Assembly: GCF_001620265.1 (NCBI RefSeq)
Contig: NZ_CP012661.1
Location: 3,764,501-3,828,500, forward strand
Direction of reading: 5' to 3'
From: Frigidibacter mobilis
GTDB lineage: Bacteria > Pseudomonadota > Alphaproteobacteria > Rhodobacterales > Rhodobacteraceae
DNA: 64,000 nt
The translations under genes and the position numbers were made by a program. The notes under the pieces were generated by a model. That model ran no database searches and was not told the DNA's origin. It saw nothing but the letters and a program-made list of their open reading frames with translations. Positions 39,711 through 57,809 of this stretch are shown piece by piece (within the stretch, counting starts at the first letter, position 1; each line of letters begins with the position of its first letter).

Positions 39711-40634
39711 TCACCCCAACTCGGCCAGTCGGCGTTCCAACCGGGCGATCATGCGCTCGACTTCCGCCTGGGCGTCGGGCGGCAGGGAGGCGCCGGGGTT
39801 GCGCTGCGCCTCGGACGCGATTGCGCCTCGTTTCGCCAGTACATACTTGCGCACCGCCAACCCCGCGCCCGGCTGCTGCTCATAGCGCACCAGCGGCAGA
39901 TAGGCGTCGAATATGTCCTGCGCCCGCTCGGGCTGGTCAGCCTGACACAGCGCCACGACCTGCGTCAGCATTTCGGGATAGGCAAAGCCAGTCATCGCGC
40001 CATCGGCGCCTCGGCCGAGTTCCTCGGGCAGAAACAGCCCCCCATTGCCGCACAGTATGGAAATGCGGCGGCCGCCGGCGGCTTCGGCCTTGCGCAAGGC
40101 GGTAATCTTGGCCAGACCCGGCCAATCTTCGTGTTTCAACATGACGATCTGCGGCAAGGCGTCAACGATGCAGCGGATCGTCCCCGGATCGATCTGAACC
40201 CCGGTCGCAAGCGGATAGTCCTGCAGCACTACTGGCACCCCATCGCCCACAGCCTGCACCGCTTGGGAAAAATAGGTGCTGATCTGCGCATCCGTTCGCA
40301 CCCCCCCGGGCGGAGCGATCATCACGCCGGCTGCGCCCATATCCATAACGGCTGCCGACAACTCGGTTATCGCCGCCAGCCCCGGCGCCGACACGCCGAC
40401 GACCACCGGCACACCGGCGCGGGCGATGACCCGCGCCGCCACGTCCCGCGATTCTGTTTGGGTCAGCTTCGGCGCCTCGCCCATCATGCCCAGAATGGTC
40501 AGCCCGGTGGCGCCCTTCGATAGGTAGAACTCCGTCACCCGGTCCAGACTGTCAAAATCGACCCGGCCGTCGGGGTGGAACGGCGTCACGGAGATCGGAT
40601 AGACGCCTTTGGCGTCGGCGGTCAAAAGCGGCAT
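39711..40634 (-). CDS. DapA/NAL-family lyase or aldolase
   Basis: A 307-residue class I aldolase-fold protein with Tyr in VLQDYPLATG and the Schiff-base lysine in MLKHEDWPG. It differs from the hydroxyproline deaminase at 10642 in length and active-site surroundings. The start at 40634 has GAGGAGGAA upstream. It is the last gene of the minus-strand operon that begins at 49289, 30 bp behind an M24 hydrolase, so it probably acts late in that pathway, cleaving or dehydrating a 2-keto acid. Substrate unknown. Confidence 0.87.
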   Translation of the reverse strand: MPLLTADAKGVYPISVTPFHPDGRVDFDSLDRVTEFYLSKGATGLTILGMMGEAPKLTQTESRDVAARVIARAGVPVVVGVSAPGLAAITELSAAVMDMGAAGVMIAPPGGVRTDAQISTYFSQAVQAVGDGVPVVLQDYPLATGVQIDPGTIRCIVDALPQIVMLKHEDWPGLAKITALRKAEAAGGRRISILCGNGGLFLPEELGRGADGAMTGFAYPEMLTQVVALCQADQPERAQDIFDAYLPLVRYEQQPGAGLAVRKYVLAKRGAIASEAQRNPGASLPPDAQAEVERMIARLERRLAELG

Positions 40635-40664
40635 CGCAATTCCTCCTCGGGGATGCACGTCGGG

Positions 40665-41882
40665 TCAGGCCCGCCACAGGTGCAGTGGCAGGGCAGAGAA
40701 GGTCTCCGGGCCCTGCCCGTCGCCCCCGATCGCAAAGGTCTGGCCCACCCCGGCGACGAGGCCGGTCGCGGTATCGGGGATCATGATGTGGACAAAGAAC
40801 ACCATGCCGGGTTCCAGCACCAAAGGGTTGCCAGAGTAGATCATCGGCGGCACATCCATCCAGGTGGGCTTGAAAGTGCAGCCCAGCGCATAGCCGCAGG
40901 CGGCATAGCGGGCATCGGCGAAGCCTGCGCCGTCGAGCGTGGCACGATGGATGTCGTCCAGCGTGCCCAGGCGCGCCCCGGGGCGTGCAGCTTCTTTGAT
41001 CTTCTCCAATGCCTCAATGGCAACGGCCATCTGGCGCTCTTGTCGTGGGTCCACGGCGCCGACGGCCGCGGTATGCTCCACAACCACATGATAGCGGCAG
41101 GCTGAAGCCGCAAGCTCGATCAGCACCTGATCCTGCACCTCAATCCGCCGCGCCCCGCCGATGCCGCGCCCGAACAGTGCACGCGGGCCGACATTGACCA
41201 GTGGTCCACCCGATGGCAGATCGCCCCCACCCGCAAGCATCGCCGTCACGGCCGCCCCGGACAGGGCCGTGTCGAAGACCCCGGGCCTTGCAATTTCGAT
41301 GGCAGCCATTGTTGCGGCATCGGCCAGCCTGCCGGCAGCGCGTACCAGGTTCAACTCGGATGGAGATTTCACCAGCCGCTGGCTGCGCACGATGTCCGAC
41401 GCATCCTCCAGCGTGCAGAATCCGGTCAGCGCCGCCTCGACCATCCGGCCGTTTGCAGCGGTCAGGCCATAGGTTGCGAATTCCACACCAACCTTGCCGC
41501 CCTGCAGTCCTCTTTCGGCCAGCAGGGCGCGCAGATCCATCGCAGGATTGGCATCCTCGGCGTTCAGCCAGATGCGCACCTCGTCATACAGCGAGTTGGT
41601 TTCGGCCTGTCGCCTGTCGGGGGTGCGCGTCAGAAGCGACGTGGCACCCTCTTCATCCGCGGTCACGATGCCGACCTGAAAGAATACATAGCCCGCCGTG
41701 TCGAACCCGGTCAGGTAGAAGTGGCTTTCCTGCGCAAAGATCAGGATCGCATCGAGCCCGCGTGCGCGCAACGCCGCGCGTGTGCAGGCCTGACGAGCGC
41801 GATATTCGGCCTCGGTGAAGCGAAGCGCGACGTTGCGGCCCGACCGGGTGGTGCCGGGAAATTCCTGTGCAAGGTCGATCAT
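40665..41882 (-). CDS. M24-family hydrolase, creatinase/ectoine-hydrolase-like (1)
   Basis: A 405-residue pita-bread-fold protein with the N-terminal creatinase domain (about 25-165: FAQESHFYLTGFDTAGYVFF) and C-terminal M24 domain. The usual aminopeptidase metal ligands are not conserved: the Asp-Asp region reads VLIELAASACRYHVVVEHT and the metal His region GCTFKPTW. It therefore resembles creatinase or DoeA-type ectoine hydrolase, which cut C-N bonds without the dimetal site. It overlaps the M20 gene upstream by ATGA. Two paralogues lie at 48111 and 55105 in the same gene cluster. Confidence 0.86.
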   Translation of the reverse strand: MIDLAQEFPGTTRSGRNVALRFTEAEYRARQACTRAALRARGLDAILIFAQESHFYLTGFDTAGYVFFQVGIVTADEEGATSLLTRTPDRRQAETNSLYDEVRIWLNAEDANPAMDLRALLAERGLQGGKVGVEFATYGLTAANGRMVEAALTGFCTLEDASDIVRSQRLVKSPSELNLVRAAGRLADAATMAAIEIARPGVFDTALSGAAVTAMLAGGGDLPSGGPLVNVGPRALFGRGIGGARRIEVQDQVLIELAASACRYHVVVEHTAAVGAVDPRQERQMAVAIEALEKIKEAARPGARLGTLDDIHRATLDGAGFADARYAACGYALGCTFKPTWMDVPPMIYSGNPLVLEPGMVFFVHIMIPDTATGLVAGVGQTFAIGGDGQGPETFSALPLHLWRA

Positions 41883-43099
41883 TGCAGCTCGCAGATGTCG
41901 CAGATGGTCAGGATGTAGATGCGGATCATATCCAGATAGTCGGGGATATCCACCCGCTCATCGGGCATGGTATTGTAGCGTCCGCCGGGACCACAGACCA
42001 CGCCCTCCATCCCGCCGTGCTTGTAAAGATGCCCGGCATCGGTGCCGTAATAGCCGGTAGGGGTAATCGCACCGGTTGGTTGCGCTTCACCCCGGATGGC
42101 CAGGTAGGCCGCATTGATCGAGGTGACGATGCGACTGTCGCGGGCGACCTGAAACGCCGGCATGATCGGCCGGCCGGCGGATTTCTGGGTGTGGACCGTC
42201 GCTTGCAACCCCGGCCAGCGGGCCATCAGACCCTCCAGTAACTTGCGGATATCGGACAGGGCGTTCTCTTCGGTCTGGCCTGGACCATAGCGGCCCGACC
42301 CGGTCAGCCGCGCAAAATCGGCCACCTGCGGCGGGCGCCATTCGTGGAATTCGCGGCCAAGCGCGCCACGGATCGTGCCGACATGCACGCGGTTGATAGA
42401 CCGATGCTCCTCGGTCGGCGCGTCGGAAAAGGTCAGGTCAGTCAGCTCCGGGATCAGGTCGCAGGCGGCACGGATGGCATCCACCGCGTGTTCGCGTTTC
42501 GACAGGTGTCGGGTGATGCCCTGCAGCTCGATGACAAAGGTGAACGCCTCAGCATGCATCGTCACCGCCATCAGGTCCGACGGTTCGGAGTTGATGAAGT
42601 AATCTGCACGCAGCCCGGCATTGACCGCCGCCAGCGTGCCGACGCCGCCCTGCAGTTCGCCGATGACGAAGGTCAGGATCACATCCCCCTTCAGCCGCAC
42701 CCCGTTCTCGATCAGCGTGCGCACGGCGCAAAGATAGGACGCATCGCCGGCCTTCATGTTCGACACGCCAATGCCATAGATGAACTTGTCATCGACCAGC
42801 CCGCCCCAGGGATCGACCGTCCAGCCCTCGGTCACCGGGTTGGTGTCGAGGTGGCCGTTGAACAGGATGCTCTTGCCGCCGCCCGTGCCACGCCAGATGC
42901 CGATGGCGTTCACCCGCTTGGCCTCGACCGGCATCAGGTAGGCCTCCATCCCGAGACCCAGCATGATCTCGACCATGCGCTCGGCCAGCACCCGCTCGCC
43001 GGGGGTTTCGGAATAGCTCTTCTGGCGCACCATCTCGGCCAACGTGTCGAGGCTGGCCTGTTCGTCGACGGCGCGTGCGATGTCGATGGCACGAGTCAT
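41879..43099 (-). CDS. M20-family metallohydrolase-like protein with altered metal ligands
   Basis: A 406-residue M20 (ArgE/DapE-like) protein. The first His and catalytic Asp remain (NGHLDTNP) and a later Glu (NSEPSD). The bridging Asp is Asn (GVSNMKAG instead of DMK), the Glu-Glu pair is Glu-Leu (GELQGG), and the final metal His is not seen in YNTMPDE. A subfamily with these changes is familiar, so this is probably a stable variant rather than decay. It may deacylate with a single metal or have another role. ATGA overlaps on both sides couple it to the transporter ATPase and the M24 gene. Confidence 0.85.
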   Translation of the reverse strand: MTRAIDIARAVDEQASLDTLAEMVRQKSYSETPGERVLAERMVEIMLGLGMEAYLMPVEAKRVNAIGIWRGTGGGKSILFNGHLDTNPVTEGWTVDPWGGLVDDKFIYGIGVSNMKAGDASYLCAVRTLIENGVRLKGDVILTFVIGELQGGVGTLAAVNAGLRADYFINSEPSDLMAVTMHAEAFTFVIELQGITRHLSKREHAVDAIRAACDLIPELTDLTFSDAPTEEHRSINRVHVGTIRGALGREFHEWRPPQVADFARLTGSGRYGPGQTEENALSDIRKLLEGLMARWPGLQATVHTQKSAGRPIMPAFQVARDSRIVTSINAAYLAIRGEAQPTGAITPTGYYGTDAGHLYKHGGMEGVVCGPGGRYNTMPDERVDIPDYLDMIRIYILTICDICELQ

Positions 43100-44739
43100 G
43101 CGGCGGTTACTCCCTTAAGTTCGGTAGGCACGGGCACCGCATTCAGCAGGGCGCGGGTATAGCTGTGGCGGGCGGGACTTTCCGCGTCTGCCACATCGAA
43201 GGTGTCAACCACCCGGCCGCCTTGCATCACCGTAATGCGGTGGGCCAGTTGGCGGATCAGGTTCAGATCATGGGTGATGAACAGGCACGCCGCCCCCGAT
43301 TGGCGCTGCAGATCAGCCAGCAACCGCGCCACGGCGGCCTGCACCGACACATCCAGCGCTGCCGTCACCTCATCGCAGATCACCAGCCTCGGCTCGGCGG
43401 CAAAGGCGCGGGCAATGGCAATCCGCTGTTTCTGCCCACCTGACAGTTGATGCGGATAGCGATGGGCGAAGTCGGCAGGTAACAGCACCATGTCCAGCAG
43501 GTCGCGGACCCGCGATGCCACCTGATCGCCGGGGCACAGGTCATACAGGCGCAACGGCCGCGACAGGATCGTGCCGATGGTCTGGCGTGGGTTCAGGCTG
43601 GCATCCGGGTGCTGGAACACGATCTGCACGTCCCGGCGATAGGCCCGGTCAAAGGCCCGCCGGCCCTCAAACGCCCGGCCGCCGAACTGCACGCTGCCTT
43701 GAAAATCACGCAAGCCCGACAGCACCTGCGCCATCGTTGATTTGCCAGACCCGCTGGCCCCGACAAGGCCAAGAAGCTCGCCCGGCCGAAGATCGAACGA
43801 CACATCCTGCGCGCCATAGAACGCGGCTGGCGCGCGGCCCATGACCCGGGTGAGCCACCCGGTATCGCCATAGCGGACTGACACGCCCTGCGCCTGCATC
43901 AGGGCAGGGCCGCGTGCCGGATCAGCCACCGCGATGCGGTTCTCGGGACGCGGCACCGCTGCCATCAGTTTGCGCGTGTAGGCGTCTTGCGGGTCACGGA
44001 ACACTTCATGCACCAGGCCGTTTTCAACGATGCGGCCCTGATGGATAACGGAAACCCTGTCGGCGATCCGCGCCACCAGCCCCAGATCATGCGAGATATA
44101 AAGGGCGGCGACCCCGGTCTCCTCGCGCAGCCGAACGAACAGATCCAGGATCTGCTGAGCAGTCAGGATGTCGAGCGCGGTCGTCGGTTCGTCAAAGATG
44201 ATGAGTTCGGGGTTGCAGGCAAAGGCGGTGGCGATGCCGACACGCTGCTTTTCGCCGCCCGACGCCTCGTGCGGGTATTTGCGCAGCATCTCGGCGGGCC
44301 GCGCGATGCCGGTACGGGCCAAGGCCGCCTCGGCCTCGGCCATCGCCTGTTCATGGGTCATGCCGCGGTGGCGGATCAGCACCTCGGCAATCTGCTCGCC
44401 CATGCGCATCGCGGGATTGAGCGAGGCGCTGGGATCTTGAAACACCATAGCGATGCGCCGGCCGCGCACCGCCTCCATCTGCGCGGGCGACTTGTCGAGA
44501 AGATGCTCTCCCGACAGCTTGATCGCCCCGCCGGTGTCGCGGGCATTGGGTGGCAGATAGCGCATGATCGCCCAGGCCAGCGTCGATTTGCCAGACCCGC
44601 TTTCGCCGACCAGCGCGTGGGTCTCGCCCGGCGCGATGGACAGCGATACCGATTGCAGTGCCTCGATGGCGCCCTGCGGCGTATCATAGGTCAGGCCATA
44701 GTCCTGAACCTCCAGCACCGGGCGTTCGGATGTGTTCAC
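43096..44739 (-). CDS. Oligopeptide ABC transporter ATPase, fused DppD-DppF
   Basis: A 547-residue protein with two complete ABC domains. The first has GESGSGKST and a degenerate signature ASGGEKQRVGIA; the second has GASGSGKST and LSGGQKQRIAIA. Fusion of the two Dpp/Opp ATPases in one chain is common in this group. It powers the DppB/DppC permeases encoded just upstream in the operon (ATGA overlaps on both sides). The likely substrate is a peptide or modified amino acid that the M20/M24 enzymes process. Confidence 0.93.
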   Translation of the reverse strand: MNTSERPVLEVQDYGLTYDTPQGAIEALQSVSLSIAPGETHALVGESGSGKSTLAWAIMRYLPPNARDTGGAIKLSGEHLLDKSPAQMEAVRGRRIAMVFQDPSASLNPAMRMGEQIAEVLIRHRGMTHEQAMAEAEAALARTGIARPAEMLRKYPHEASGGEKQRVGIATAFACNPELIIFDEPTTALDILTAQQILDLFVRLREETGVAALYISHDLGLVARIADRVSVIHQGRIVENGLVHEVFRDPQDAYTRKLMAAVPRPENRIAVADPARGPALMQAQGVSVRYGDTGWLTRVMGRAPAAFYGAQDVSFDLRPGELLGLVGASGSGKSTMAQVLSGLRDFQGSVQFGGRAFEGRRAFDRAYRRDVQIVFQHPDASLNPRQTIGTILSRPLRLYDLCPGDQVASRVRDLLDMVLLPADFAHRYPHQLSGGQKQRIAIARAFAAEPRLVICDEVTAALDVSVQAAVARLLADLQRQSGAACLFITHDLNLIRQLAHRITVMQGGRVVDTFDVADAESPARHSYTRALLNAVPVPTELKGVTAA

Positions 44740-45557
44740 GACCGGCTCCTTTTCGGATCAAAGGCATCGCGCAGCGCGTCACCGAACAGGTTGAACCCCA
44801 TCGCAGTGATTGCGATGGCCACCCCCGGCACAACCACGCACCACGGGTTGCGGAACATGAACTGCCGCGCCTCGGACACCATCAGCCCCCACTCGGTCGA
44901 GGGTGGCTGCGCGCCCAGGCCCAGAAACCCCAGCGTGGCGCCGATCATGATAGCAAAGCTGACCCGGATGGTCGCCTCGACGATGATGGGACCAAGGGCA
45001 TTGGGCAGTACTTCACGCCCGACGATCCACATCCGGGATTCCCCGCGCGCGATGGCCGCCAGCACATATTCGCGTGTGCGCACCGACAGCACGGCGCTGC
45101 GGGCGATCCGGGCCATGCCCGGTGCAAAGGTCACCGCCACTGCCAGCATCGCCTGCGTCATCCCGCCGCCCAGAAAGGTGACGATCAGCAGGGTGAACAG
45201 CAGCTCCGGCATCGCCAGGAACCCGTCGAGTACCCGCATGATGATGCTGTCGACCTTGCCCCCGGCGACACCTGCGACCACGCCGATCACTGAACCGGCG
45301 CCAACCCCCAGCGCCGTAGCGCCAAGGCCGAAGAACACGGTTGACGGCGCCCCATGCAAGATGCGCGACAGCAGATCCCGGCCATATTGGTCGGTGCCCA
45401 GCCAGAATTCGGCGCTGGGTCCCTGCAGCCGGGACGGCGCATGGAACAGTTGCGGGTCATAGGGCGCCAGCCAGGGGCCGAACAGCGCCACCACCAGCAC
45501 GATCATCAACAGGACAAGGCCAACCACGCCCACCGGATTTCTAAGGAAATCACGCAT
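44736..45557 (-). CDS. Oligopeptide ABC transporter permease, DppC-like
   Basis: A 273-residue inner-membrane permease with a typical DppC N-terminus (helix VGLVLLMIVLVVALFGPWLAPYDP and the WLGTDQYGRDLLSRI motif) and an EAA loop AAIARGESRMWIVGREVLPNALGP in the second half. It pairs with the DppB-like protein; the genes overlap by eight bases. Confidence 0.93.
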   Translation of the reverse strand: MRDFLRNPVGVVGLVLLMIVLVVALFGPWLAPYDPQLFHAPSRLQGPSAEFWLGTDQYGRDLLSRILHGAPSTVFFGLGATALGVGAGSVIGVVAGVAGGKVDSIIMRVLDGFLAMPELLFTLLIVTFLGGGMTQAMLAVAVTFAPGMARIARSAVLSVRTREYVLAAIARGESRMWIVGREVLPNALGPIIVEATIRVSFAIMIGATLGFLGLGAQPPSTEWGLMVSEARQFMFRNPWCVVVPGVAIAITAMGFNLFGDALRDAFDPKRSRS

Positions 45558-46500
45558 GGCGCACCCGTGGGTCCAGCCAGGCGATCACGATATCCGACAG
45601 CAGGTTCGACAGCGCATAGACCACGGCCAGCGTCAGCGTGATGGCCTGGATCACCGGCAGGTCGCGGTTCTGCAGCGCATAAATCAGCGTGCGGCCCATC
45701 CCCGGCCAGGCGAAAATCTCTTCTACCACGATGATGCCGCCCAGCAGATACCCGATATCCAGCGAGATCACCGCCACCGCCGGTGCCATTGCATTGGGCA
45801 GTGCGTGGCGCCAGATCACCCGGCGTGCGCGCAGCCCCTTCAACCGGGCAGCGCGCACATGGTCCGAAGCCAGCACCTCAGACATTTCCGACCGCACCTG
45901 GCGAGAGATATGCGCCATCAGGATCAGCCCCAATGTAGCAGCCGGCAACGTGACATGGCGCAGAAACCCTGCCAAGCTTTCAGAGGGTGCAACGAAGCCG
46001 CCTGCCGGGAACAGCGGCCATTCTGGGCTTGCCAGCAGGATCAGCAGCAAGGTCGCCGTAACGAATTCAGGCATCGCCGTGCCGACATAAGACAGCAGGC
46101 CAATGCCCAGATCCCAGGCCGATCCGCGTTTCAGGGCAGCCAGCACCCCAAGCGGGATTGCGATGATCGTTACCCCGGCCAGCGCGATCAGCGCCAGCCA
46201 GGCAGAGTTCCAGAACGCGTCGCCCACCACCTGCGCCACCGGCAACGACAGGCGCAGCGACATGCCAAAATCACCATGCAGCACGCCCCAGACCCAGGCG
46301 CCATACTGCACCCAGACGGGCCGATCCAAGCCCAGCTGTCGTTCCATCGCGGCCAGCGAGTCGGCCGTTGCATGTTCGCCAAGGATCATCAGCGCGGCAT
46401 TGCCGGGCAGGACCATCGTGATGGAAAACACGGCCAAGGTGACGATCGCCAACACGATGGCGATCGCTCCGAGCCTGCGCAGGAGGTAGGCAAGGGTCAT
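45550..46500 (-). CDS. Oligopeptide ABC transporter permease, DppB-like
   Basis: A 316-residue inner-membrane permease of the DppB family: N-terminal helix followed by the periplasmic domain containing LGLDRPVWVQYGAWVWG, then six or so helices, the EAA loop AARLKGLRARRVIWRHALPNAMAP, and EEIFAWPGMGR near the C-terminus. It follows the binding-protein gene by nine bases. Confidence 0.93.
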   Translation of the reverse strand: MTLAYLLRRLGAIAIVLAIVTLAVFSITMVLPGNAALMILGEHATADSLAAMERQLGLDRPVWVQYGAWVWGVLHGDFGMSLRLSLPVAQVVGDAFWNSAWLALIALAGVTIIAIPLGVLAALKRGSAWDLGIGLLSYVGTAMPEFVTATLLLILLASPEWPLFPAGGFVAPSESLAGFLRHVTLPAATLGLILMAHISRQVRSEMSEVLASDHVRAARLKGLRARRVIWRHALPNAMAPAVAVISLDIGYLLGGIIVVEEIFAWPGMGRTLIYALQNRDLPVIQAITLTLAVVYALSNLLSDIVIAWLDPRVRHA

Positions 46501-46509
46501 GCGCCGTCC

Positions 46510-48060
46510 TCAGGCCTTGTCCAGCCAGACATCCTCGACATAGAAATAACGCGAGATTGGCGCCACTCCCCAGCTTTCGGCCTTGTCGCTGCTGGCCGTC
46601 AGCACATCTTCGAAGAAGGGCACGATATAGGGAACGTCCTCCAGTTCCATTGCCTGTGCCTTCGCATAGATCTCGGCACGCTTGGCGGGGTCGATGGTGG
46701 CGCGGCCCTCGTCGATCAGCGCATCGAACTCTGCATTCTTCCACTCGGTATCTTGATAGGAGGCATCCGAGGTCAGCAGCAGGCGGTAGGTCGCGTCGAT
46801 GGTGGGCTGCATGCCCCAGTAGCCTATGTAGAACGCGTTCTTCATCCAGACGTTGGCCAGATAGGTGTCATGCGGCATCGTCTCGATGGTCAGGTCGAAC
46901 CCGCCGGCCGCGGCCGACTGCTTCAGGGCGATGGCAGTCTGCACCCGGATGCCGGGGCGATCCGATGCGACCAATGTCGCCGTGATGCCGTCAGGATAGC
47001 CCGCCTCGGCCAACAACGCCTTGGCCGCCTCGGGATCATAGGCAATCACGGGTTTTTCCGTGGCAAAGCCAAGTTCAGGGGGCACGATGCTGTCATAGGC
47101 TGGGCGACCCAGGCCCTCTAGGATAACCTCGACCAGTAATTCACGGTCGGTGGCCAGCGCCAGCGCCTTGCGAACGCGCACATCATCCCACGGCTTGGTA
47201 TCCTGGCGCATCACGACGCAGACATACCGACCAGAGGCCACCCGCTGTGCCTCGATCCCGGCGGCGGCGGCGATACGGGCGAATTCGGCCTGCTGCACGG
47301 TCAGCATCACATCCGTCGCGCCAGACAGGAAGTTGGCGGACTCGGCGGCAAGATCGGGGAACAGCATCATCTCGACTGCGTCCAGATAGGGCTTGCCCGG
47401 CTGATAATAGTCAGGGTTCTTGACCAGCCGGACCATCCGGGCGCTGTCATAGACATCCAGCTTGAACGGGCCGGTGCCATTGGCCTTGGTGTCCAATTCG
47501 GTCAGCGGCGCGGCCAGGGCCGCCTTGGAAATGATGCGGGCATTGGCATGGGCGGTCGAGGTCGGTAGATCGGCAAACGGCGTCTTCAACGTGAACTTCA
47601 CCGTCAGCGGGTCCAGCGCCTCGATCTTGTCGACCATCGTCAGCACGGAGCGGGCAGCGGCGGGCACATCGGGGTTCAGAATGGCGGTATAGGTGGCCAC
47701 CACATCATCGGCGGTAAAAGGCGTGCCATCATGGAACTTGACCCCTTCGCGCAGATGAAAGGTGAACTCGGTGGCGTCATCCGAAGCCTCCCAATGTGTT
47801 GCCAGATCCGGGTGGGCCTGGCTGTCCAGCCCCATGCGGGTCAGGCCGGAATAGATCATGTCGATGCACGGATATTCCGCCGGGCCCGAAAGCGACAGCA
47901 CGTTAAGCGTGGCGATGCGGGTGGAATGGCTGATGCGCAGGGTGCCGCCAGCTATGGGAGTCTGGGCCAGCGCGGCGTCTGGCAGGCCCAGCGTCGTCAA
48001 TGCGCCCAGCGCACCAAGGCCCATCAGCACATGGCGACGTTTGAGGGTAAGGTCGGTCAT
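46510..48060 (-). CDS. Peptide ABC transporter substrate-binding protein (SBP_bac_5)
   Basis: A 516-residue periplasmic binding protein of the DppA/OppA type. The signal peptide carries a KRRHVLMGLGAL segment that looks twin-arginine-like, ending around ALAQ. Family landmarks are the N-terminal RISHSTRIATLNVL, EFTFHLREGVKFHDGTPFTADDVV and GTGPFKL segments. It feeds the DppB/C permeases encoded immediately downstream. The ligand may be a dipeptide, an opine-like or cyclic amino acid derivative. Confidence 0.93.
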   Translation of the reverse strand: MTDLTLKRRHVLMGLGALGALTTLGLPDAALAQTPIAGGTLRISHSTRIATLNVLSLSGPAEYPCIDMIYSGLTRMGLDSQAHPDLATHWEASDDATEFTFHLREGVKFHDGTPFTADDVVATYTAILNPDVPAAARSVLTMVDKIEALDPLTVKFTLKTPFADLPTSTAHANARIISKAALAAPLTELDTKANGTGPFKLDVYDSARMVRLVKNPDYYQPGKPYLDAVEMMLFPDLAAESANFLSGATDVMLTVQQAEFARIAAAAGIEAQRVASGRYVCVVMRQDTKPWDDVRVRKALALATDRELLVEVILEGLGRPAYDSIVPPELGFATEKPVIAYDPEAAKALLAEAGYPDGITATLVASDRPGIRVQTAIALKQSAAAGGFDLTIETMPHDTYLANVWMKNAFYIGYWGMQPTIDATYRLLLTSDASYQDTEWKNAEFDALIDEGRATIDPAKRAEIYAKAQAMELEDVPYIVPFFEDVLTASSDKAESWGVAPISRYFYVEDVWLDKA

Positions 48061-48110
48061 CGGAAGCTCTCCTTGTTGGGGGGACGGCCTTTGCGGCCTT
48101 GTTATTCAGG

Positions 48111-49289: not shown

Positions 49290-49352
49290 TCGTCGTCCTT
49301 TCGGTTAGGGCGGGCAAGGCCGCCACGACAAGGTTGCAGTTACCGTAGAACT

Positions 49353-49364
49353 TGGTATACTAAC
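49353..49364. promoter_or_regulatory. TTGGTATACTAA operator between M24 and GntR genes
   Basis: A near-perfect palindrome in the 196-bp divergent gap between the transporter operon and the GntR operon. Its core TGGTATACTA is identical to that at 1776-1785, and it differs by one base from the perfect palindrome at 56984. Probable binding site of the FCD regulator encoded at 49486. Confidence 0.72.
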
Positions 49365-49485
49365 AGTCAACCATCGGAATATGGACTGTGTGTCATTTTC
49401 ATTTTACCTTGTGCTTGCAGAGCCCCTAAGATGAAGATGCGCCCGGCCCCGAACCGCGCCACGCCGGTAAACCAGAGGAGACCGG

Positions 49486-50139
49486 ATGCTGAACGCCCCT
49501 GACAAACGCCTTGCCTTGCAAGCCTATGAACAGATCCTCGAACTGATATTGGGTGGCCGCGCCGCTCCGGGCGAACTCGTCAACGAGCGGCGCCTGGCCG
49601 AGACGCTGAACATGTCGCGCACCCCGGTGCGCGACGCGCTGCTGATGCTCGAAGGCGAAGGACTGCTGCTGCGGCAGGGCAGCCGAGGTCTCCAGGTCAA
49701 GCAGATGCGGATCGAGGATTACATGGATGCGCTGCAGGTGCGGCTGCTGCTGGAACCCGCCGTGGCGCGAATGGCGGCGGGCAAGCTGCCGGCGGAAACC
49801 ATTGCCACCCTGCGCGCCCAGATCGCCGAGGCCGAGGCCGAGGCGGTCGGACAGCCGGCCGATCGCGCCTTGGTACGCGATATCGACGAGGGGTTGCACG
49901 GGGCGATCTCCGATGCCGTCGACAACCAGCAACTGTCTTCGATCATCCGCACCATGCGGCGGCAGACCCAGATGTTCGACCTGCGCAGCATGCCTGAGCG
50001 GCTGGCCGATACCTGCCGCGAACATCTGGCCATCCTCGATGCAATGGAACAGGGCGATGGCGAGGCGGCAGCGCTGGCAATGGCCGCCCACCTGACACGG
50101 GTGCGCGACAGCATCATCAGCCGGTTGACCCGGCTATGA
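49486..50139 (+). CDS. GntR/FCD-family regulator of the peptide/oxoproline module
   Basis: A 217-residue FCD regulator: winged helix at about residues 10-75 (NERRLAETLNMSRTPVRDALLMLEGEG split across helices) and FCD domain with the ligand/metal positions DIDEGLHG and the later CREHLAI, MAAHL. GAGGAG lies upstream of the ATG. Its stop overlaps the next gene by ATGA. It probably binds the TTGGTATACYAA sites at 49353 and 56984 and so controls both operons and pxpA. Confidence 0.9.
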   Translation: MLNAPDKRLALQAYEQILELILGGRAAPGELVNERRLAETLNMSRTPVRDALLMLEGEGLLLRQGSRGLQVKQMRIEDYMDALQVRLLLEPAVARMAAGKLPAETIATLRAQIAEAEAEAVGQPADRALVRDIDEGLHGAISDAVDNQQLSSIIRTMRRQTQMFDLRSMPERLADTCREHLAILDAMEQGDGEAAALAMAAHLTRVRDSIISRLTRL

Positions 50140-51440
50140 CCCCTGCCATGTCGCTTGGCGCCCGGCCGTCAAGTGCCGATCCCAAACCAGATGTCGCCCT
50201 GGCCACCCGGCTTTTCGCCGAGCTGCGGATGCGCACCGGCGGGCCGCGCGGCATCACCCGCGCCTCCTACGGACTGGGCGAGCAGATCGCCCATGACATG
50301 GTCCGGCGCGAGGCCCGGCGGCTGGGCCTGGAAAGCCGCATCGACGCAGGCTGCAACCTCTACATGACGATGCGAGGCCAACGCCCGGGACCGGCGATTA
50401 TCATTGGCTCGCACCTGGATTCGGTGCCGCTGGGGGGCAATTACGACGGCGCGGCCGGGGTGCTCGCCGGGCTGGCCGTGCTGTCTGGCTATATTTCGGC
50501 CGGGGTGGTGCCGCCGCAGGACATCACCATCATGGCGATCCGGGCCGAGGAAAGCACCTGGTTCAGTGCCTCTTACATCGGCAGCCGCGCTGCCTTTGGC
50601 CAGTTGACCCGGTCCGAGCTGGACACGGTGCTGCGGGTGGGCGACCGAGTGGCCCTGGGGCGTGCAATCGACGCTGCCGGCGGCGACACGGCCGTGCTGC
50701 GCGCCGGCAAAACTCTGGACCCGGCGCAGGTGGCGGCCTTTATCGAGCCGCATATCGAGCAGGGCCCGGTTCTGGTCGCGCGCAATCGCCCCGTGGGCAT
50801 TGTCACCGGCATTCGCGGCAGTTTTCGCCATCGCCAGGCCGTCTGCACCGGCGCCTACGCCCACTCTGGCGCCACCCCGCGCGAGAATCGCCAGGATGCG
50901 GTCATGGCGGCGGCACGGCTGGCCGTGCGGCTGGACGATGCTTGGACCCGGCTGGCGGCACAGGGCTATGATCTGACCGTGACCTTTGGCCAACTGGCCA
51001 CCGATGCCTCGGAGGCGGCCTTCTCCAAGGTGGCAGGCCGGGTCGAATTTTCCGTCGACATCCGCAGCCAGAGCCACGCAACGCTGAATATGATGCGGGC
51101 AGAGCTGCATCAGGCCGTGACCGATATCGAGACGCTTCAGAAGGTGCGCTTTGACCTTGGCAAGGAGACGGGCAGCGAACCGGCGCTAATGGACCGTCAA
51201 GCCATCGCCGATCTGGCCGAAATCGCCGCCGCGCAAGGCATCGCGGCCGAGGTCATGCCCTGCGGCGCAGGCCATGACGCGGCGGTGTTTGCGCAGATGG
51301 GCGTGCCGACCGGCATGCTGTTCATCCGCAACCGCAACGGGAGCCATAACCCGGACGAAGCGATGGAGATTGAGGATTTTGCCGAGGCCGCCCGCATCCT
51401 GTCGGCGTTCTGCCTGATGGATACCAGGCGCCTGCGATGA
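50136..51440 (+). CDS. M20-family Zn amidohydrolase, N-carbamoyl-amino-acid hydrolase-like
   Basis: A 434-residue amidohydrolase of the allantoate amidohydrolase / beta-ureidopropionase / L-carbamoylase group. Metal residues are all present: HLDSVPLGGNYDGAAG (His, Asp), RAEESTWF (Glu-Glu), HIEQGPVL (His/Glu) and the late GHDAAVFA (His), with the GAYAHSGATP dimer-interface loop. It removes a carbamoyl or similar group from an amino acid amide nitrogen. ATGA overlaps on both sides make it part of the GntR-dehydrogenase-pxpBC operon. Confidence 0.92.
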   Translation: MTPAMSLGARPSSADPKPDVALATRLFAELRMRTGGPRGITRASYGLGEQIAHDMVRREARRLGLESRIDAGCNLYMTMRGQRPGPAIIIGSHLDSVPLGGNYDGAAGVLAGLAVLSGYISAGVVPPQDITIMAIRAEESTWFSASYIGSRAAFGQLTRSELDTVLRVGDRVALGRAIDAAGGDTAVLRAGKTLDPAQVAAFIEPHIEQGPVLVARNRPVGIVTGIRGSFRHRQAVCTGAYAHSGATPRENRQDAVMAAARLAVRLDDAWTRLAAQGYDLTVTFGQLATDASEAAFSKVAGRVEFSVDIRSQSHATLNMMRAELHQAVTDIETLQKVRFDLGKETGSEPALMDRQAIADLAEIAAAQGIAAEVMPCGAGHDAAVFAQMGVPTGMLFIRNRNGSHNPDEAMEIEDFAEAARILSAFCLMDTRRLR

Positions 51441-52359
51441 CGCTTTGCGTGCTGGCCCAGCCCATCGACCCCGCCGGGATCGCACTTTTGCAAGACGCGG
51501 GCCTGGATGTGGCGATTGCGCCCGATACCACTGCGCGCAGCCTTGTACCGCTGCTGGAGCGGGCCGAGGCGGTCATAACCCGCAACTGGGGGTTTCCGGC
51601 TGAGGCGATGGCCTTGGCACCGCATCTGCGCGTGATCGGAAGCCACGGCACCGGAGTGGACCGCATCGACATGGCCGCCGCGCGGCTGCGCGGAATCCGG
51701 GTGGTCAACACGCCGGGCGCCAATGCGCCAGATGTGGCAGAGCTTGCGCTGGGGCTGATGCTGGCAGCGGCGCGCCAGCTGCCCGAGGCCACCCATGCCC
51801 TGCTGGCAGGGGATGACGACTGGCGGCTCGGCAACCGCGGGCTCGCGCTTGGGGGAAAGTGCTTGGGACTCTGGGGCTGGGGCCATGTGGCACGGGCGCT
51901 GACCCCGATGGCACAGGGGCTGGGGATGCGGGTGGTGGTGCTGTCGTCCCATGCCGACAAGGCCGAGTTGGCCGCAGCCGGTATCGGCCGGGCAACCGAT
52001 GCGGCCGATCTGCTGGCGCAGGCCGATGTGCTGTCGCTGCACGGTGTGCCGGGGGCGCATCCGGTTCTGGGTGCGGCCGAGTTGGCGGCACTGCGCCCCG
52101 GGGCGCTGGTCATCAACACCGCGCGCGGCGCGCTGATCGACGAGATGGCGCTGGTGCAGGCCCTGCACGGGGGTCATCTGGGCGGCGCCGCGCTTGACGT
52201 GACGGTGACCGAGCCCTTGCCTTCTGACCATCCGCTGCGCGGCTGTCCCCGGCTGGTGCTGACCCCTCACATCGGCGCCAGCACTGATCGTGGCATGACC
52301 CGCACCGCGCAGGCAGTCGCGCGTGCCGTTCTGGAGCGCTGGCAGAGGGCCCACCATGA
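51437..52359 (+). CDS. D-2-hydroxyacid dehydrogenase, 3' end frameshifted
   Basis: NAD-dependent dehydrogenase of the phosphoglycerate/glycerate dehydrogenase family: NAD motif LWGWGHVARAL, catalytic Arg in NTARGALID, Glu region in TEPLPSDHPL and His in LTPHIGAST. It reduces a 2-keto acid or oxidises a 2-hydroxy acid. As written the frame stays open to 52681, adding about 100 residues that lie on top of pxpB and have no family similarity. One extra base at 52347-52352 (GGGCCC) would end the protein at TGA 52357-52359, overlapping the pxpB start as ATGA like the other junctions here, with a normal length of about 307 residues. Confidence 0.85.
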
Positions 52360-53081
52360 CGGCCGACGCGGCGCCTCGCCTGCTGGACTGCGGCGATACC
52401 GCGATCAGCGTCGATTACGGCAATGCGGTCGACCCGGCGCTGAACGCGCGCGTCACGGCGTTGGACCGCGCGCTGCAAGCCGAGCCGTTCCCCGGTCTTG
52501 TCGAATGCGTGCCGAGCTATCGCGCGCTGATGGTGCACTTCGACCCGCTGGCGACCGATGTCGCCGCCCTGCGGACACGGCTCCTCGCCTTGGCCGCCGC
52601 ACCGCCGGTTGTGGCGGGACCGCGCCGCCGCTGGCAGGTGCCGGTCGCCTATGGTGGGCCGCATGGCGCGGATCTCGATGACATCGCGGCTTACGCCAGC
52701 TTGTCGCCCGCCGACTTTGTCGAGGCGCACCTGGCGCCGGTCTATACCGTGATGATGATCGGGTTCCTGCCCGGGTTTTCGTATCTGGGCGGGTTGGATC
52801 CACGCCTTTCCCGCCCTCGGCGCAAGGTGCCGCGCCCTCTCATTCCGGCCTCCTCAATCAGTATCGGCGGCGACCAGACCGCAGTTGGCAGCGTCGCCGG
52901 TCCCAGTGGCTGGCACCTGATCGGCCGCACGCCCGCCCTGCCCTTCGCCCCCGGGCGTGAGCCGGTGTTCCTGTTCGACGCCGGAGATGAAATCGTGTTC
53001 ACCCCAATCTCGCCGCGCGAGTGGGACAACCTCAGCAGCCGCGCAGCGGCGGGCGCGAGCGTGGCAGTGCGGGTGGCGTGA
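52356..53081 (+). CDS. pxpB: 5-oxoprolinase subunit PxpB (KipI-like)
   Basis: A 241-residue PxpB/KipI-family protein: SYRALMVHFDPL, the GFLPGFSYLGGLD motif, and PAGS-type sequence SISIGGDQTAV with the late GWHLIGRTP. With PxpA and PxpC it hydrolyses 5-oxoproline to glutamate using ATP. The ATG at 52356 is preferred to the GTG at 52323 because it overlaps the dehydrogenase end. It overlaps pxpC as TGATG. It lacks no obvious family motif. Confidence 0.94.
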   Translation: MTADAAPRLLDCGDTAISVDYGNAVDPALNARVTALDRALQAEPFPGLVECVPSYRALMVHFDPLATDVAALRTRLLALAAAPPVVAGPRRRWQVPVAYGGPHGADLDDIAAYASLSPADFVEAHLAPVYTVMMIGFLPGFSYLGGLDPRLSRPRRKVPRPLIPASSISIGGDQTAVGSVAGPSGWHLIGRTPALPFAPGREPVFLFDAGDEIVFTPISPREWDNLSSRAAAGASVAVRVA

Positions 53082-54073
53082 TGTCGGTGCTGGTGGTCGA
53101 GCGCTGCGGGCCCGGAACCTCGATCCAGGATCTGGGGCGGCAGGGCTGGCGGCGGCAGGGCGTTTCAACGGCGGGTGCGGCAGACCGCCTGGCACTGGCG
53201 GCGGCGAATGCACTGGTGGGCAATTCGGCCGATGTGGCGGCGGTCGAAACCATATTGGCCGGTGCACGCTTCCGCATCGAGGGGGGCGCGGTCTTGCTGG
53301 CCGCCGCCGGACCTGGCGTGACGCTGGCCGTCGACGGACGCACCGTGGCGCCGGGCGTTTCGGTCCGGGCCGGGCCGGGCCAAGCGATCGATCTTGGACC
53401 GACGCGCGGTGGGGTCCACGGCTACCTGGCAGTGGCCGGCGGGTTCACATTGCGCCCCCAGATGGGCAGCCGGTCGGTTCATCTGCGCTCTGGCATCGGC
53501 GGCGACATGCTGATGCCCGGCACGCGGCTGGGTGTGACAGGGGGCGCCTCCGGCCCATTGGCACTGCCCCGGATGCCGGAGCATGAAACCGGCCCGATCC
53601 GCGTCATGGCTGGCCCGCAGGACGACTGGTTCCCGCCGGGCACGCTGGGCACGCTGACCGCTGCGACCTGGCGGGTCGATGCGCGGTCCGACCGGATGGG
53701 CCGATTTCTTGACGGGCCGCGCCTTCAGCACCATGCGGGCTCGATGGTGTCAGACGGGGTGCTGCCCGGCAGCATCCAGGTGCCACCCTCGGGCCAGCCC
53801 ATCGTGCTGATGCGCGATTGCCAGACCACCGGCGGCTACCCGAAGATCGCCACCGCGATCTCGGCCGATCTGGACAGGCTCGCGCAGATGCAGGCGGGGG
53901 CCGAGTTCCGGCTGCAGCTGGTGGACCGCATCACTGCCGTAGCGGCTGCGGCCCGATTGGCTGCCAAGATCGCCGGGCTGGCCCCGCAGCCCGCCGGAGG
54001 CCTGGACAGTGCGCGGCTGCTGGCAGAAAATCTGATTAGCGGGGTGGTCGACGCTCATCGCACCGACGGCTGA
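53081..54073 (+). CDS. pxpC: 5-oxoprolinase subunit PxpC (KipA-like)
   Basis: A 330-residue PxpC/KipA-family protein with GPGTSIQDLGRQGWRRQGVSTAG near the N-terminus (split by short gaps), GVHGYLAVAGG, and SDGVLPGSIQVPPSGQPIVLMRD, TTGGYPKIATA toward the end. It forms the carboxylase-like half of the PxpBC complex. It overlaps pxpB by TGATG and is the last gene before the IS481-type insertion. The partner pxpA lies 3 kb further on at 57045 behind a separate operator. Confidence 0.94.
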   Translation: MSVLVVERCGPGTSIQDLGRQGWRRQGVSTAGAADRLALAAANALVGNSADVAAVETILAGARFRIEGGAVLLAAAGPGVTLAVDGRTVAPGVSVRAGPGQAIDLGPTRGGVHGYLAVAGGFTLRPQMGSRSVHLRSGIGGDMLMPGTRLGVTGGASGPLALPRMPEHETGPIRVMAGPQDDWFPPGTLGTLTAATWRVDARSDRMGRFLDGPRLQHHAGSMVSDGVLPGSIQVPPSGQPIVLMRDCQTTGGYPKIATAISADLDRLAQMQAGAEFRLQLVDRITAVAAAARLAAKIAGLAPQPAGGLDSARLLAENLISGVVDAHRTDG

Positions 54074-55108
54074 CGCCCCCCCTAGGGTTGGGACACAATC
54101 CATGTTTGATCACGGAGTTTGATGGTGCGATCTTTTCCTTGGGGTGGAAGGAGGCACTATGGGACAGGTTCTACACGGCAGCGCCACCACGACAGGGGCA
54201 ATCCGTCGAGCAATACAGAATAGTGAAGAGAGCCTGAGGGCGCTTTCGGCGCGCTATGGGATCAATCAGAAGACCGTGGCCAAGTGGCGCAAGCGCACGT
54301 CGGTCACCGATCTTCCCACCGGGCCGAAGGAAGCAAGGTCCACGGTGCTGTCGCCGACGAAGAGGCGGTGATCGTCGCGTTCCGGCGGCACACACTGTTG
54401 CCGCTGGACGATTGTCTCTATGCACTTCAGCCGTCTATCCCGCATCTGACGCGATCCTCGCTGCATCGCTGCCTGCAACGCCATGACATCTCGCGTCTCC
54501 CCGAGGTCCAGGGCGACAAGCCTGCGAGGACGAAGTTCAAATCCTACCCGCTCGGCTACTTCCACGTTGATATTGCTGAGGTTCAGACGGCCGAAGGCAA
54601 GCTGTATCTCTTCGTTGCCATCGACCGGACCTCCAAGTTCGCTTTCGTGGAACTGCACCAAAAGGCGGGTAAGATGGCCGCCGCAGCCTTCCTGCGCAAC
54701 GTGATCGCCGCGGTGCCTTACAGGCTCCACATCGCGCTTACTGACAACGGCATTCAGTTCACCAATCATGAACGGCACATTCATGCTGGCGAGCACATCT
54801 TCGACCGCGTCTGCCGCGAACATAAGATCGACCACCGGCTCACCAAGATCAAACACCCATGGACGAATGGCCAGGTGGAACGCATGAACCGCACCATCAA
54901 GGAAGCGACCGTCAAGCGCTTCCACTACGATGACCACGACGAACTGCGAAATCACCTCGCCAACTTCATCAGTGCATATAACTTCGGGCGAAGACTGAAG
55001 ACCCTCAAAGGCCTCACGCCCTACGAGTTCATCTGCAAACAATGGACAATCGCGCCCGACAGGTTCACCCTAAACCCGATCCACCAAATGCCGGGACTGA
55101 ACAACTAG
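54074..55108 (+). mobile_element. IS481-like insertion between pxpC and M24 gene (limits approximate)
   Basis: The transposase gene and its leader lie in what would otherwise be a convergent gap between pxpC and the third M24 hydrolase. The left limit is somewhere after 54073; the right limit is close to 55108, where the transposase stop and the M24 stop share the bases CTAG. No target duplication could be identified. Confidence 0.55.
54144..55108 (+). pseudogene. IS481-family transposase, frameshifted
   Basis: The first part (54144-54371) encodes the N-terminal helix-turn-helix (SLRALSARYGINQKTVAKWRKRT) and the second part (next frame, to 55108) the DDE core: YFHVDIAEV, LTDNGIQF and NGQVERMNRTIKEAT. 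One added base around 54353-54355 joins them into a single IS481-type transposase of about 320 residues. GGAAGGAGG precedes the ATG. I could not find terminal inverted repeats; the right side abuts the M24 gene at 55105 directly, so the element may be truncated there. Confidence 0.85.
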
Positions 55109-56241: not shown

Positions 56242-56253
56242 CAGGTTATTCCT

Positions 56254-56952
56254 TCAATCTCGAGAGATCATCTCGGCAAAGCGGGTCAGCATGATCTTGG
56301 CGTCCAGCGCCTCATCCGCCTCGGCGATGAAACCATCGACATCGCCGCCATCTTGCACCATGCGGGCGCGGTTCTCTTCGAACCAGACGGGCGCCTGGGA
56401 GCGGGTGATCTCGGGGTGCCCCTGAATACCCCAGGCGGGCGCCGTGCGATGGCGCCAGACCTGGTTCGGGCAGTCGTCCGATGACGCCAGAATCACCATA
56501 TCCGGGTGATCCGCCCGCACTTCATCATTGTGCCACACGAACATGCGCACCGTATCGCCCCAATCCTGTGCCAGCGGGTCGGCGGCGGCGGCGGCGGTCA
56601 CGGGCAGATCCTTGTAGCCGATCTCGCAGCTGGTGCGGCGGAATACCTGGTCCTTGCCGCACAGCGCCGAGCCCAGGATCTGACTGCCAAAACAGATGCC
56701 CAGCATGGGGATCTTGCGGTCGGCGGCCTGCCGGATCAGGTCATGCTCGCGGTTGATGAAGGGCACATCCTCGTAGGCGCCATGCGGACTGCCTGACAGG
56801 AAGATGCCGTCATAACCATCCAGGCCGACAGGAAATTCGTCATTCCACGCCCAGAACCGGTCGACCTTGAGCCCCCAGCCTTCAAAGCGGTCATCCAGTC
56901 TGGCCACCGATTGCAGTTTGCGGCCATTGCCGAGGTAGAGCAGGCGCTTCAC
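56254..56952 (-). CDS. Type 1 glutamine amidotransferase-like protein
   Basis: A 232-residue class I GATase-fold protein with nucleophilic Cys in GICFGSQIL, His in QGHPEI and the following Glu, matching GMP-synthase-like or gamma-glutamyl hydrolase-like stand-alone members. Such proteins can hydrolyse gamma-glutamyl amides, as PuuD does. The gamma-glutamyl theme would fit with 5-oxoprolinase, but the substrate is unproven. It is divergent from pxpA across the perfect TTGGTATACCAA operator and is followed by the third M24 gene after 12 bp. Confidence 0.88.
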   Translation of the reverse strand: MKRLLYLGNGRKLQSVARLDDRFEGWGLKVDRFWAWNDEFPVGLDGYDGIFLSGSPHGAYEDVPFINREHDLIRQAADRKIPMLGICFGSQILGSALCGKDQVFRRTSCEIGYKDLPVTAAAAADPLAQDWGDTVRMFVWHNDEVRADHPDMVILASSDDCPNQVWRHRTAPAWGIQGHPEITRSQAPVWFEENRARMVQDGGDVDGFIAEADEALDAKIMLTRFAEMISRD

Positions 56953-56983
56953 GATGGACTCCGTTGGACAAGGCGTTCCCTAT

Positions 56984-57028
56984 TTGGTATACCAATGGAG
57001 TTCCGTATAGCAACCAATATCATACCAA
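56984..57028. promoter_or_regulatory. TTGGTATACCAA operator plus half site before pxpA
   Basis: TTGGTATACCAA (56984-56995) is a perfect 12-bp palindrome in the 92-bp gap between the amidotransferase and pxpA. A second half site ATACCAA lies at 57022-57028. It matches the site at 49353 except for one base and matches the known UxuR/ExuR-type GntR consensus. It should place both flanking genes under the FCD regulator. Confidence 0.75.
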
Positions 57029-57044
57029 CCTGCGCGAGGCTTAG

Positions 57045-57809
57045 ATGCGCATCGACCTGAACGCTGACCTTGGCGAAGGCTTCGGCCCTTGGGCGATGGG
57101 TGACGACACCGCCTTGCTGCAGATCGTGACGACGGCGAACGTGGCCTGCGGCTTTCACGCCGGCGACCCGGCAATCATGCGGGCAACCGTGAGGGAGGCG
57201 AAGGCGTGCGGCGTCGCGGTAGGGGCGCATCCGGGCTATGCCGATCTGGCCGGCTTTGGCCGGCGCGCGATGCCGGGCGTGACCGTGGCCGAGATAGAAA
57301 ACCTGATCGCCTATCAGGTCGGCGCGATGGCGGCGATCTGTGCGCTCGAAGGCCACCCGATGACGCATGTCAAGACTCACGGCGCGCTTGGCAATGCTTG
57401 CGCCGATGATGACGCATTGGCCCTGGCGGTGGGCCGAGCGATCCTGGCGGTGGATCCTTCGCTGAGGTTTATGGTGATGCCCGGAACCGCGACCGACCGC
57501 GCCGCCGACCACTTGGGACTGTGCCCCATCCGCGAGATCTATGCCGACCGCACCTATGCCGACAGCTTCAACCTGACGCCGCGCGGCCACGCCGGGGCCG
57601 CGCTGCACGACCCGACCGAAGCGCTGGCCCGGGTGTTGGACATGGTCACCAACGGCCACATCACCGCCACCAGCGGCAAGCGGCTGCCTGTGCAGATAGA
57701 TTCGGTCTGCGTACATGGCGACAGCCCCTACGCCGTGAGCATGGCGCGCCACCTGCGTGCCGGCTTGGTGGCTGCGGGCATGACAGTCTGCGCGGCGGGC
57801 GCCCCCTGA
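57045..57809 (+). CDS. pxpA: 5-oxoprolinase subunit PxpA (LamB/YcsF family)
   Basis: A 254-residue LamB/YcsF-family protein with the opening IDLNADLGEGFG, NVACGFHAGDP, AHPGYADLAGFGRR and HVKTHGALGN motifs that bind the metal and substrate. It completes the PxpABC 5-oxoprolinase whose other subunits are at 52356 and 53081. It has its own divergent promoter with the TTGGTATACCAA operator. The separation from pxpBC by an IS and two minus-strand genes is unusual. Confidence 0.95.
   Translation: MRIDLNADLGEGFGPWAMGDDTALLQIVTTANVACGFHAGDPAIMRATVREAKACGVAVGAHPGYADLAGFGRRAMPGVTVAEIENLIAYQVGAMAAICALEGHPMTHVKTHGALGNACADDDALALAVGRAILAVDPSLRFMVMPGTATDRAADHLGLCPIREIYADRTYADSFNLTPRGHAGAALHDPTEALARVLDMVTNGHITATSGKRLPVQIDSVCVHGDSPYAVSMARHLRAGLVAAGMTVCAAGAP

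Follow-up and report, generated by a model that had tools for sequence, protein, structure and literature searches.

Creatinase is a metal-free M24 enzyme, and the ectoine hydrolase DoeA hydrolyses its substrate without the metal ligands of the M24 aminopeptidases. In the pathway that leads from creatinine through N-methylhydantoin to N-carbamoylsarcosine, an amidine step is followed by an ATP-dependent ring opening and then by carbamoyl removal. Here we analyse a gene cluster of Frigidibacter mobilis in which three M24 proteins are encoded together with the 5-oxoprolinase subunits PxpABC, a carbamoylase and a Dpp-type importer. It lies in a stretch of 64,000 nucleotides (contig NZ_CP012661.1, positions 3,764,501 to 3,828,500), hereafter the window, within a genome of 4.99 Mb. 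Probably the cluster specifies a breakdown pathway that is undescribed as far as the literature was searched, and the chances appear about even that its genes form a single catabolic regulon, controlled by GntR, for one imported compound that is cyclic, nitrogen-rich and amino-acid-like. This reading starts from an operator-like site, the conservation of the gene set, residue patterns and family assignments, from which we infer the reactions, their order and the class of substrate. Searches of open-licence PMC papers did not find the gene set in print, as an earlier note on this DNA, made from its letters alone, had supposed.

Organisation of the gene cluster

All gene families listed in the earlier note were found between 39.7 and 57.8 kb (39711..57809) by open reading frame (ORF) listing and profile scans. 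A minus-strand operon reads M24b, solute-binding protein (SBP), two permeases, fused ATPase, M20i, M24a and DapA-type protein, its neighbours overlapping by 4-8 bases or being separated by gaps of at most 50 bases. The divergent plus-strand operon consists of the GntR/FCD regulator, carbamoylase, 2-hydroxyacid dehydrogenase (HADH), pxpB and pxpC. Past pxpC, a truncated IS481 transposase gene is followed by M24c and the amidotransferase-like gene on the minus strand and by pxpA on the plus strand. Hence the cluster is not a single transcript, as it is made of two divergent operons and a pxpA(+)/amidotransferase-M24c(-) pair. The features are as follows.

39711..40658, minus strand: DapA-type (DHDPS family) protein, 6 bp downstream of M24a; Pfam DHDPS 1.7e-26
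40665..41882, minus strand: M24a, metal-free M24 of the R-E-V-Y-H-G type; Pfam M24 and Creatinase_N, residues, tree
41879..43099, minus strand: M20i, M20-family protein with Asn/Leu/Asn at expected ligand positions; profile and alignment
43096..44739, minus strand: importer ATPase with two fused ABC domains, Dpp/Gsi type; profile scans
44736..45557, minus strand: importer permease, DppC/OppC type; profile scans
45550..46500, minus strand: importer permease, DppB type; profile scans
46510..48060, minus strand: solute-binding protein family 5, GsiB-like; profile scans
48111..49289, minus strand: M24b, metal-free M24 of the R-E-K-Y-H-G type, heading the minus-strand operon; profile, residues, tree
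49353..49362, no strand: GntR operator-like palindrome between M24b and GntR, 1 mismatch to TGGTATACCA; motif scan
49486..50139, plus strand: GntR/FCD regulator; profile scan
50136..51440, plus strand: carbamoylase-type M20 hydrolase with canonical motifs; TIGR01879 253.7 bits, cut-off 204
51437..52345, plus strand: 2-hydroxyacid dehydrogenase, domain end approximate; open frame to 52681 without a stop
52356..53081, plus strand: pxpB, start inferred (ORF listed from 52323); Pfam CT_C_D 3e-64
53081..54073, plus strand: pxpC, start inferred (ORF listed from 53021); Pfam CT_A_B 1e-73, TIGR00724 above cut-off
54284..55108, plus strand: IS481-family transposase matching its model from position 51 on, outside the pathway; end of inverted segment
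55105..56241, minus strand: M24c, metal-free M24 of the DoeA-like H-E-R-Y-Y-S type; profile, residues, tree
56254..56952, minus strand: class-I glutamine-amidotransferase-like hydrolase; profile scans
56985..56994, no strand: GntR operator-like palindrome between the amidotransferase gene and pxpA, exact TGGTATACCA; motif scan
57045..57809, plus strand: pxpA (LamB/YcsF); NF003814 339.6 bits, cut-off 226

Residues of the three M24 proteins

All three proteins belong to the M24 fold (Pfam PF00557, 85.8-96.5 bits, cut-off 23). They were compared at six diagnostic columns, which we take to hold the shuttle His, two Asp, one His and two Glu, with a canonical protein of the same genome (L001) as reference and with orthologues at least 58% identical to the window proteins, window included. 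L001 reads H-D-D-H-E-E, M24a R-E-V-Y-H-G, M24b R-E-K-Y-H-G and M24c H-E-R-Y-Y-S. The earlier note had stated that the aminopeptidase dimetal ligands are lacking from all three, and indeed each of the five positions (Asp-Asp-His-Glu-Glu) is replaced in M24a, M24b, M24c and their aligned orthologues. The six letters are invariant in 44, 39 and 35 rows, respectively, with the lone exception of the second Asp column of M24a, which is Val or Cys. At the shuttle-His column M24a and M24b have Arg while M24c keeps His. Among the 120 best-listed homologues of M24b, itself included, all 120 display the same six letters and the canonical letter is kept at none of the columns.

In a tree where L001 was the only canonical row and no creatinase row was included, M24a and M24b fall in one clade with SAR11, rhizobial and actinobacterial proteins, and by these residues they appear to belong to a metal-free clade with its own signature, Arg-Glu-Tyr-His-Gly. 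This M24 type was not found in print in open-licence PMC papers. In Paenarthrobacter and Rhodococcus such a protein adjoins a creatininase-family gene, in two rhizobial records it lies directly after pgeF (L130, 12028-13179; L131, 12001-13152), and in SAR11 it is found at 10001-11155 of both L073 and L078. The neighbours in L078 (GMC oxidoreductase, TerC, SDR, M23, methyltransferase, alanine-dehydrogenase-like) give no hint of a substrate.

The closest solved structure to the predicted model of M24b is DoeA, at about 25% identity. Ectoine hydrolase, not creatinase, is the nearest relative of the three M24 proteins, yet they are not DoeA, so that of the "creatinase/DoeA-like" description in the earlier note the DoeA likeness stands and the creatinase likeness is weaker. 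A variant of ectoine or hydroxyectoine use would agree with this nearest relative and with the TRAP or SBP_bac_3-type importers of related clusters, known ectoine importers being of these types. However, the proteins score 107-129 bits against the DoeA model TIGR02993 (cut-off 613) and 149-175 bits against NF038259 (cut-off 575), their residues differ, and no doeB or eut genes occur among the scanned cluster ORFs, unlike at a true doeA locus (L217). Ordinary ectoine hydrolases, which would have undone the proposal of the earlier note, are thus not what the cluster encodes; an ectoine operon was rejected on the scores and on the neighbours compared with L217, and even an ectoine variant is scarcely credible.

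The other enzymes of the cluster

The two M20 proteins are of different kinds, as the earlier note had read them. M20i keeps GHLD and a catalytic-type Glu, but Asn, Leu and Asn replace what we presume to be the bridging Asp, the metal Glu and the last His in 29/29 rows, and hence the full set of M20 metal ligands is not there. Its predicted model (mean predicted local distance difference test, pLDDT, 65; active-site stretches mostly < 50) was not used. In the carbamoylase, the His, Asp and Glu motifs are kept in 39/39 rows and, with the TIGR01879 cut-off passed, cut-off and metal-binding motifs place it in the hydantoinase/carbamoylase family.

The absence of the expected ligands raises the possibility that M24a, M24b and perhaps M20i are non-catalytic pseudo-enzymes serving as partners, sensors or scaffolds of active enzymes. 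The two M24 proteins have lost the shuttle His along with the metal ligands, and M20i lacks three expected ligand letters. Against this, the residues standing in their place do not vary and for the most part recur in distant SAR11, actinobacterial and rhizobial proteins, which suggests that an active site has been kept, and DoeA works without these metal ligands. We regard a purely non-catalytic role as quite improbable.

The amidotransferase-like protein carries a Cys, His, Glu triad (residues as we assign them) in 36/36 rows. All three PxpABC subunit genes are in the cluster and PxpA passes its model cut-off, while PxpC is below the 5-oxoprolinase-specific model NF045499 (199.6 of 500 bits). 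A second pxpABC locus lies elsewhere in the genome (L191, G000:C1:1314232-1315567), with its pxpA split in two frames. The protein at 39711..40658 scores 92 bits against TIGR00674, below the DapA cut-off of 206, and is therefore not classed as DapA; by family it would be an aldolase/lyase. Judged by residue roles that we assume from the DHDPS family, the Lys motif is kept, while Gln-Asp stands where the catalytic Tyr-Asn is expected and a small residue replaces the substrate Arg, both in 31/31 rows. An ergothioneine-type carbamoylglutamate route, which an ErtE match (262 bits, cut-off 520) had suggested, was rejected, no other gene of that route being recognised in the cluster.

The HADH frame (51437-52681) has no stop of its own and runs about 110 codons (~ 325 bases) into pxpB. 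Full-length relatives mostly have frames of 304-321 aa, the longer frames of a few being probably due to an upstream start, and the overrun in the window is taken for a recent frameshift or a sequence error. The pxpA-amidotransferase-M24c segment (54284-57809) is inverted compared with relatives, with the N-truncated IS481 gene at the junction. Around it 25 short inverted-repeat pairs were found, the longest of 28 nt, with no obvious flanking pair among them. Further IS481 relatives (72%, 68%, plus fragments) are present elsewhere in the genome.

Conservation of the gene set

A scan of named genomes gave 79 loci, of which 39 have the core, and together with a plasmid locus (L128) these make up 40 loci. 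The set is carried by patchily distributed alphaproteobacteria: within the family, an M24b match at the cut-off used occurs in 7/295 genomes, own included (G279 at 46% only), and the closest named-genome match to M24a is that of Gemmobacter nectariphilus (86%). Counted on the fetched stretches only, and lowered by contig ends and unextended flanks, presence in the 40 loci is M24a 40, M24b 39, GntR 39, carbamoylase 39, amidotransferase 36, M24c 35, pxpA 29, pxpB 29, pxpC 28, DapA-type 28, HADH 27 and M20i 25. The presence table has 46 rows; the later, partly read L166-L171 (two apparently the L016 and L036 contigs again) were left out, and the short contigs L010, L017, L038 and L039, which cover just the M24a side, stand outside it. 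All three pxp genes are found in 24 of the 40 loci, including L016 and L031 with a diverged type II set.

Gene order is conserved as well. The divergent order carbamoylase-GntR/M24b-SBP-permeases-ATPase-M24a is seen in 39/40, L028 having a fetched stretch without that side, and the usual plus-side order in relatives is GntR-carbamoylase-HADH-pxpB-pxpC, then pxpA reversed, then amidotransferase-M24c. M24c is present at ≥ 65% identity in 37/37 type I genomes searched (two partial), that is, the 40 minus G030, G035 and G036, which lack the type I cluster. The expectation of the earlier note that M24 genes, pxpABC and carbamoylase belong together is borne out across genera in the 40 loci. Carbamoylase relatives from outside the cluster, at 40-52% identity, served as a control (32 loci, 24 genomes of the class): none has adjoining pxp genes, while a weak M24 (25%) is found in one and an HADH relative (34-37%) in five.

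Two parts of the set are less fixed. PxpABC and HADH, all four, are absent from the fetched regions of 7/40 loci (L011, L012, L013, L018, L027, L028, L086), although for L028 and L086 the relevant side is not, or not fully, within these regions, and the sole pxp gene of L032 and L035 is a diverged pxpA (47%). PxpABC and HADH are a separable block. M20i occurs in 35/37 cluster genomes versus 8/384 other genomes of the class. The type I cluster is without it in 12/37 genomes, 10 of which carry M20i elsewhere, in a type III cluster in all eight of these ten that were fetched. Of the eight class-background M20i loci, five have a Dpp importer and one an adjoining M24. M20i is not tied to the type I cluster alone.

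A shared operator-like site

The palindrome TGGTATACCA is common to most M24b/GntR intergenic regions of the 40 genomes compared, window included. With at most one mismatch and within 300 bases upstream, the site is found at M24b/GntR in 37/40 genomes, at pxpA in 24/26 and at the amidotransferase gene in 26/37, the latter sites being largely those of pxpA because the two genes are divergent. Of the 11 amidotransferase genes without it, six lie directly behind the carbamoylase gene (L011, L013, L015, L016, L027, L031) and would therefore follow the GntR promoter. No site was found upstream of M24a (0/46), carbamoylase (0/40), M24c (0/36) or SBP (0/34), and it is rare at DapA (1/33), HADH (1/30) and pxpB (2/32). 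For comparison, the remaining ORFs of the same loci have it in 5/936 upstream regions. Of 37 further loci (L180-L216; types II-IV and unrelated), three have a one-mismatch site, which suggests that different sites are in use there.

In the window three sites are observed versus 0.27 expected, at 49353, 56985 and 1776. Since its separate transcription units share this predicted site, the cluster looks like one GntR/FCD regulon, and the "one regulatory unit" of the earlier note holds in that sense, but not as one transcript.

The separability of PxpABC and HADH could also mean that two unrelated pathways travel together under a common regulator, as the block tends to drop out as a unit. Yet in type II clusters it adjoins another M24, and pxpA keeps the M24b site in 24/26 genomes; we find two such pathways decidedly improbable.

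Elsewhere in the window, the site at 1776 (1 mismatch) precedes an MR_MLE gene with its own adjoining FCD regulator; 1776-11592, holding this gene, then two FCD regulators, MatE, a TRAP importer and another DapA-family gene, is possibly a separate operon. Downstream of the cluster lie siderophore importer genes (60034-62851; EitA-like binding protein, FecCD permease, ATPase) and, near the window end (63206-63919), an ORF matching the C-terminal profile part of a Tle1-like phospholipase catalytic domain of the type VI secretion system.

Related clusters and hints at chemistry

Type II clusters read pxpA/pxpB-pxpC-(GntR)-HADH-carbamoylase-M24, and type III clusters M20-SBP-permeases-ATPase-M20i-M24. 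Of nine genomes searched for pxpA elsewhere, five (G002, G004, G008, G020, G023) have it in a type II cluster and G006 has it in the type I cluster; these six are the ones with a pxpA neighbourhood that was read, the other three being G003, G015 and G040. Among annotated type II relatives, L209, L210 and L214 all encode a D-amino-acid transaminase and a VOC protein. L209 and L214 further have a "urea carboxylase-associated" protein and an amino-acid ABC importer, L209 and L210 a DapA-family gene and a TRAP importer, and L210 an SDR. In Methylobacterium, carbamoylase-pxpA-pxpB-pxpC-VOC adjoins genes for an ABC importer, GntR and M24, with a dihydroorotase, an Asp/Glu racemase and another carbamoylase nearby, and Pantoea has M20, MR_MLE, M24, DapA, a gamma-glutamyl-GABA hydrolase homologue and an aminotransferase. 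Agmatinase-family genes lie next to M24a or near DapA/SDR in L044 and L123, and L044 and L031 have matches, below cut-off, to the "urea amidolyase associated protein" model. Together these genes suggest that an amino-acid-like compound undergoes amidine, guanidine, ureide or lactam chemistry, without naming that compound.

Some of the same observations would suit peptide scavenging, in which a dipeptide importer feeds M24 and M20 peptidases and the 5-oxoprolinase handles pyroglutamyl products. The importer is of the Dpp/Gsi type, type III clusters join an importer to two M20 and one M24, and M24b relatives, where publicly named, are called Xaa-Pro dipeptidase, Xaa-Pro peptidase family, M24 family metallopeptidase or aminopeptidase P family. 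Nevertheless, the canonical dimetal letters are gone from all three M24 proteins with other residues fixed instead, and the carbamoylase, HADH, DapA-type and amidotransferase-like genes would be left unexplained. We consider peptide scavenging unlikely.

Proposed pathway

Genomic evidence gives good support to the view that these genes make up one pathway. In the catabolic regulon that we favour, the Dpp-type ABC importer would take up a cyclic, nitrogen-rich molecule resembling an amino acid or a peptide. The M24 proteins would hydrolyse C-N bonds of an amidine, cyclic amidine or similar group without metal, as DoeA does; M24c most likely acts in the DoeA manner, and M24a and M24b, a related pair, may be partners or act on successive intermediates. 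PxpABC would open a lactam or cyclic ureide at the expense of ATP, the carbamoylase take off a carbamoyl group, the amidotransferase-like enzyme cleave a side-chain amide and M20i perform a further C-N cut, while the dehydrogenase and the DapA-type lyase would degrade the carbon skeleton. A more specific version, tentative and rather doubtful as a whole, is that a new metal-free M24 class opens a cyclic guanidine or amidine, that PxpABC is an ATP-dependent hydantoinase-like opener passing its N-carbamoyl product to the adjacent carbamoylase, and that the paralogous clusters (types I-IV) serve related environmental compounds.

Several observations weigh against a single regulon and pathway. PxpABC-HADH (present in 27-29/40) and M20i (present in 25/40) are missing from many clusters, so some steps need not be encoded in cis. 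M24c is on another contig than the cluster in 6/37 genomes, with large contigs in G026 and G027; one cluster that is otherwise good (L171) lacks M24b, and at L044 M24a stands without M24b. M20i is far from exclusive, being on 61 plasmid records and common on rhizobial and Pantoea plasmids, while of 86 records with an M24a match only two exceed 60%. The p-values ignore the kinship of the loci and so overstate their independence; the Fisher tests of site counts likewise ignore relatedness, with control ORFs called mechanically, and the motif was derived from the same M24b/GntR regions in which it was later counted, the pxpA sites being the independent part. Moreover, Arg for His in M24a and M24b could mean lost catalysis, and PxpABC may be a plain 5-oxoprolinase, the genome having a second pxpABC locus.

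Should the regulon prove to be a pathway, the M24b relatives named "Xaa-Pro dipeptidase" or "M24 family metallopeptidase" would gain a substrate, M24 catalysis would reach beyond creatine and ectoine, and PxpABC would have a function besides 5-oxoproline recycling. The wider clade is present in SAR11 and in rhizobia. The operator-like site makes the regulon testable, as the ligand of one GntR regulator should reveal the substrate.

Comparison with known systems

DoeA/EutD (PDB 6twj, 6twk, 6yo9) is the closest solved fold and sequence to the cluster M24 proteins. In both the metal ligands are lost and Glu and Tyr stand at two of those positions, whereas M24a and M24b differ from DoeA by Arg for the shuttle His and by His/Gly at the last two positions. 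Creatinase (PDB 1chm) shares the M24 fold and the Creatinase_N domain, but keeps His and Glu, presumably functional, at two positions where the cluster proteins have Tyr, and His or Tyr. Creatinase identity was ruled out by residues and scores, the similarity being lower than to DoeA.

M20i shares N-x-K, where other M20 have D-M-K, and also GE followed by Leu/Ile, with 5-nitroanthranilate aminohydrolase (M20, PDB 5k8m), in a likeness confined to about 115 residues; among solved relatives a desuccinylase (7uoi) outscores it. The cluster PxpABC has the same three subunits as 5-oxoprolinase and differs by its linkage to carbamoylase and M24 genes. The carbamoylase belongs to the family of hydantoinase/carbamoylase amidases (TIGR01879), but sits with PxpABC instead of a cyclic amidohydrolase. 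No creatinine-specific gene was found in the window cluster; the creatinine pathway nevertheless follows the same logic as the one proposed here, with different enzyme families at the steps.

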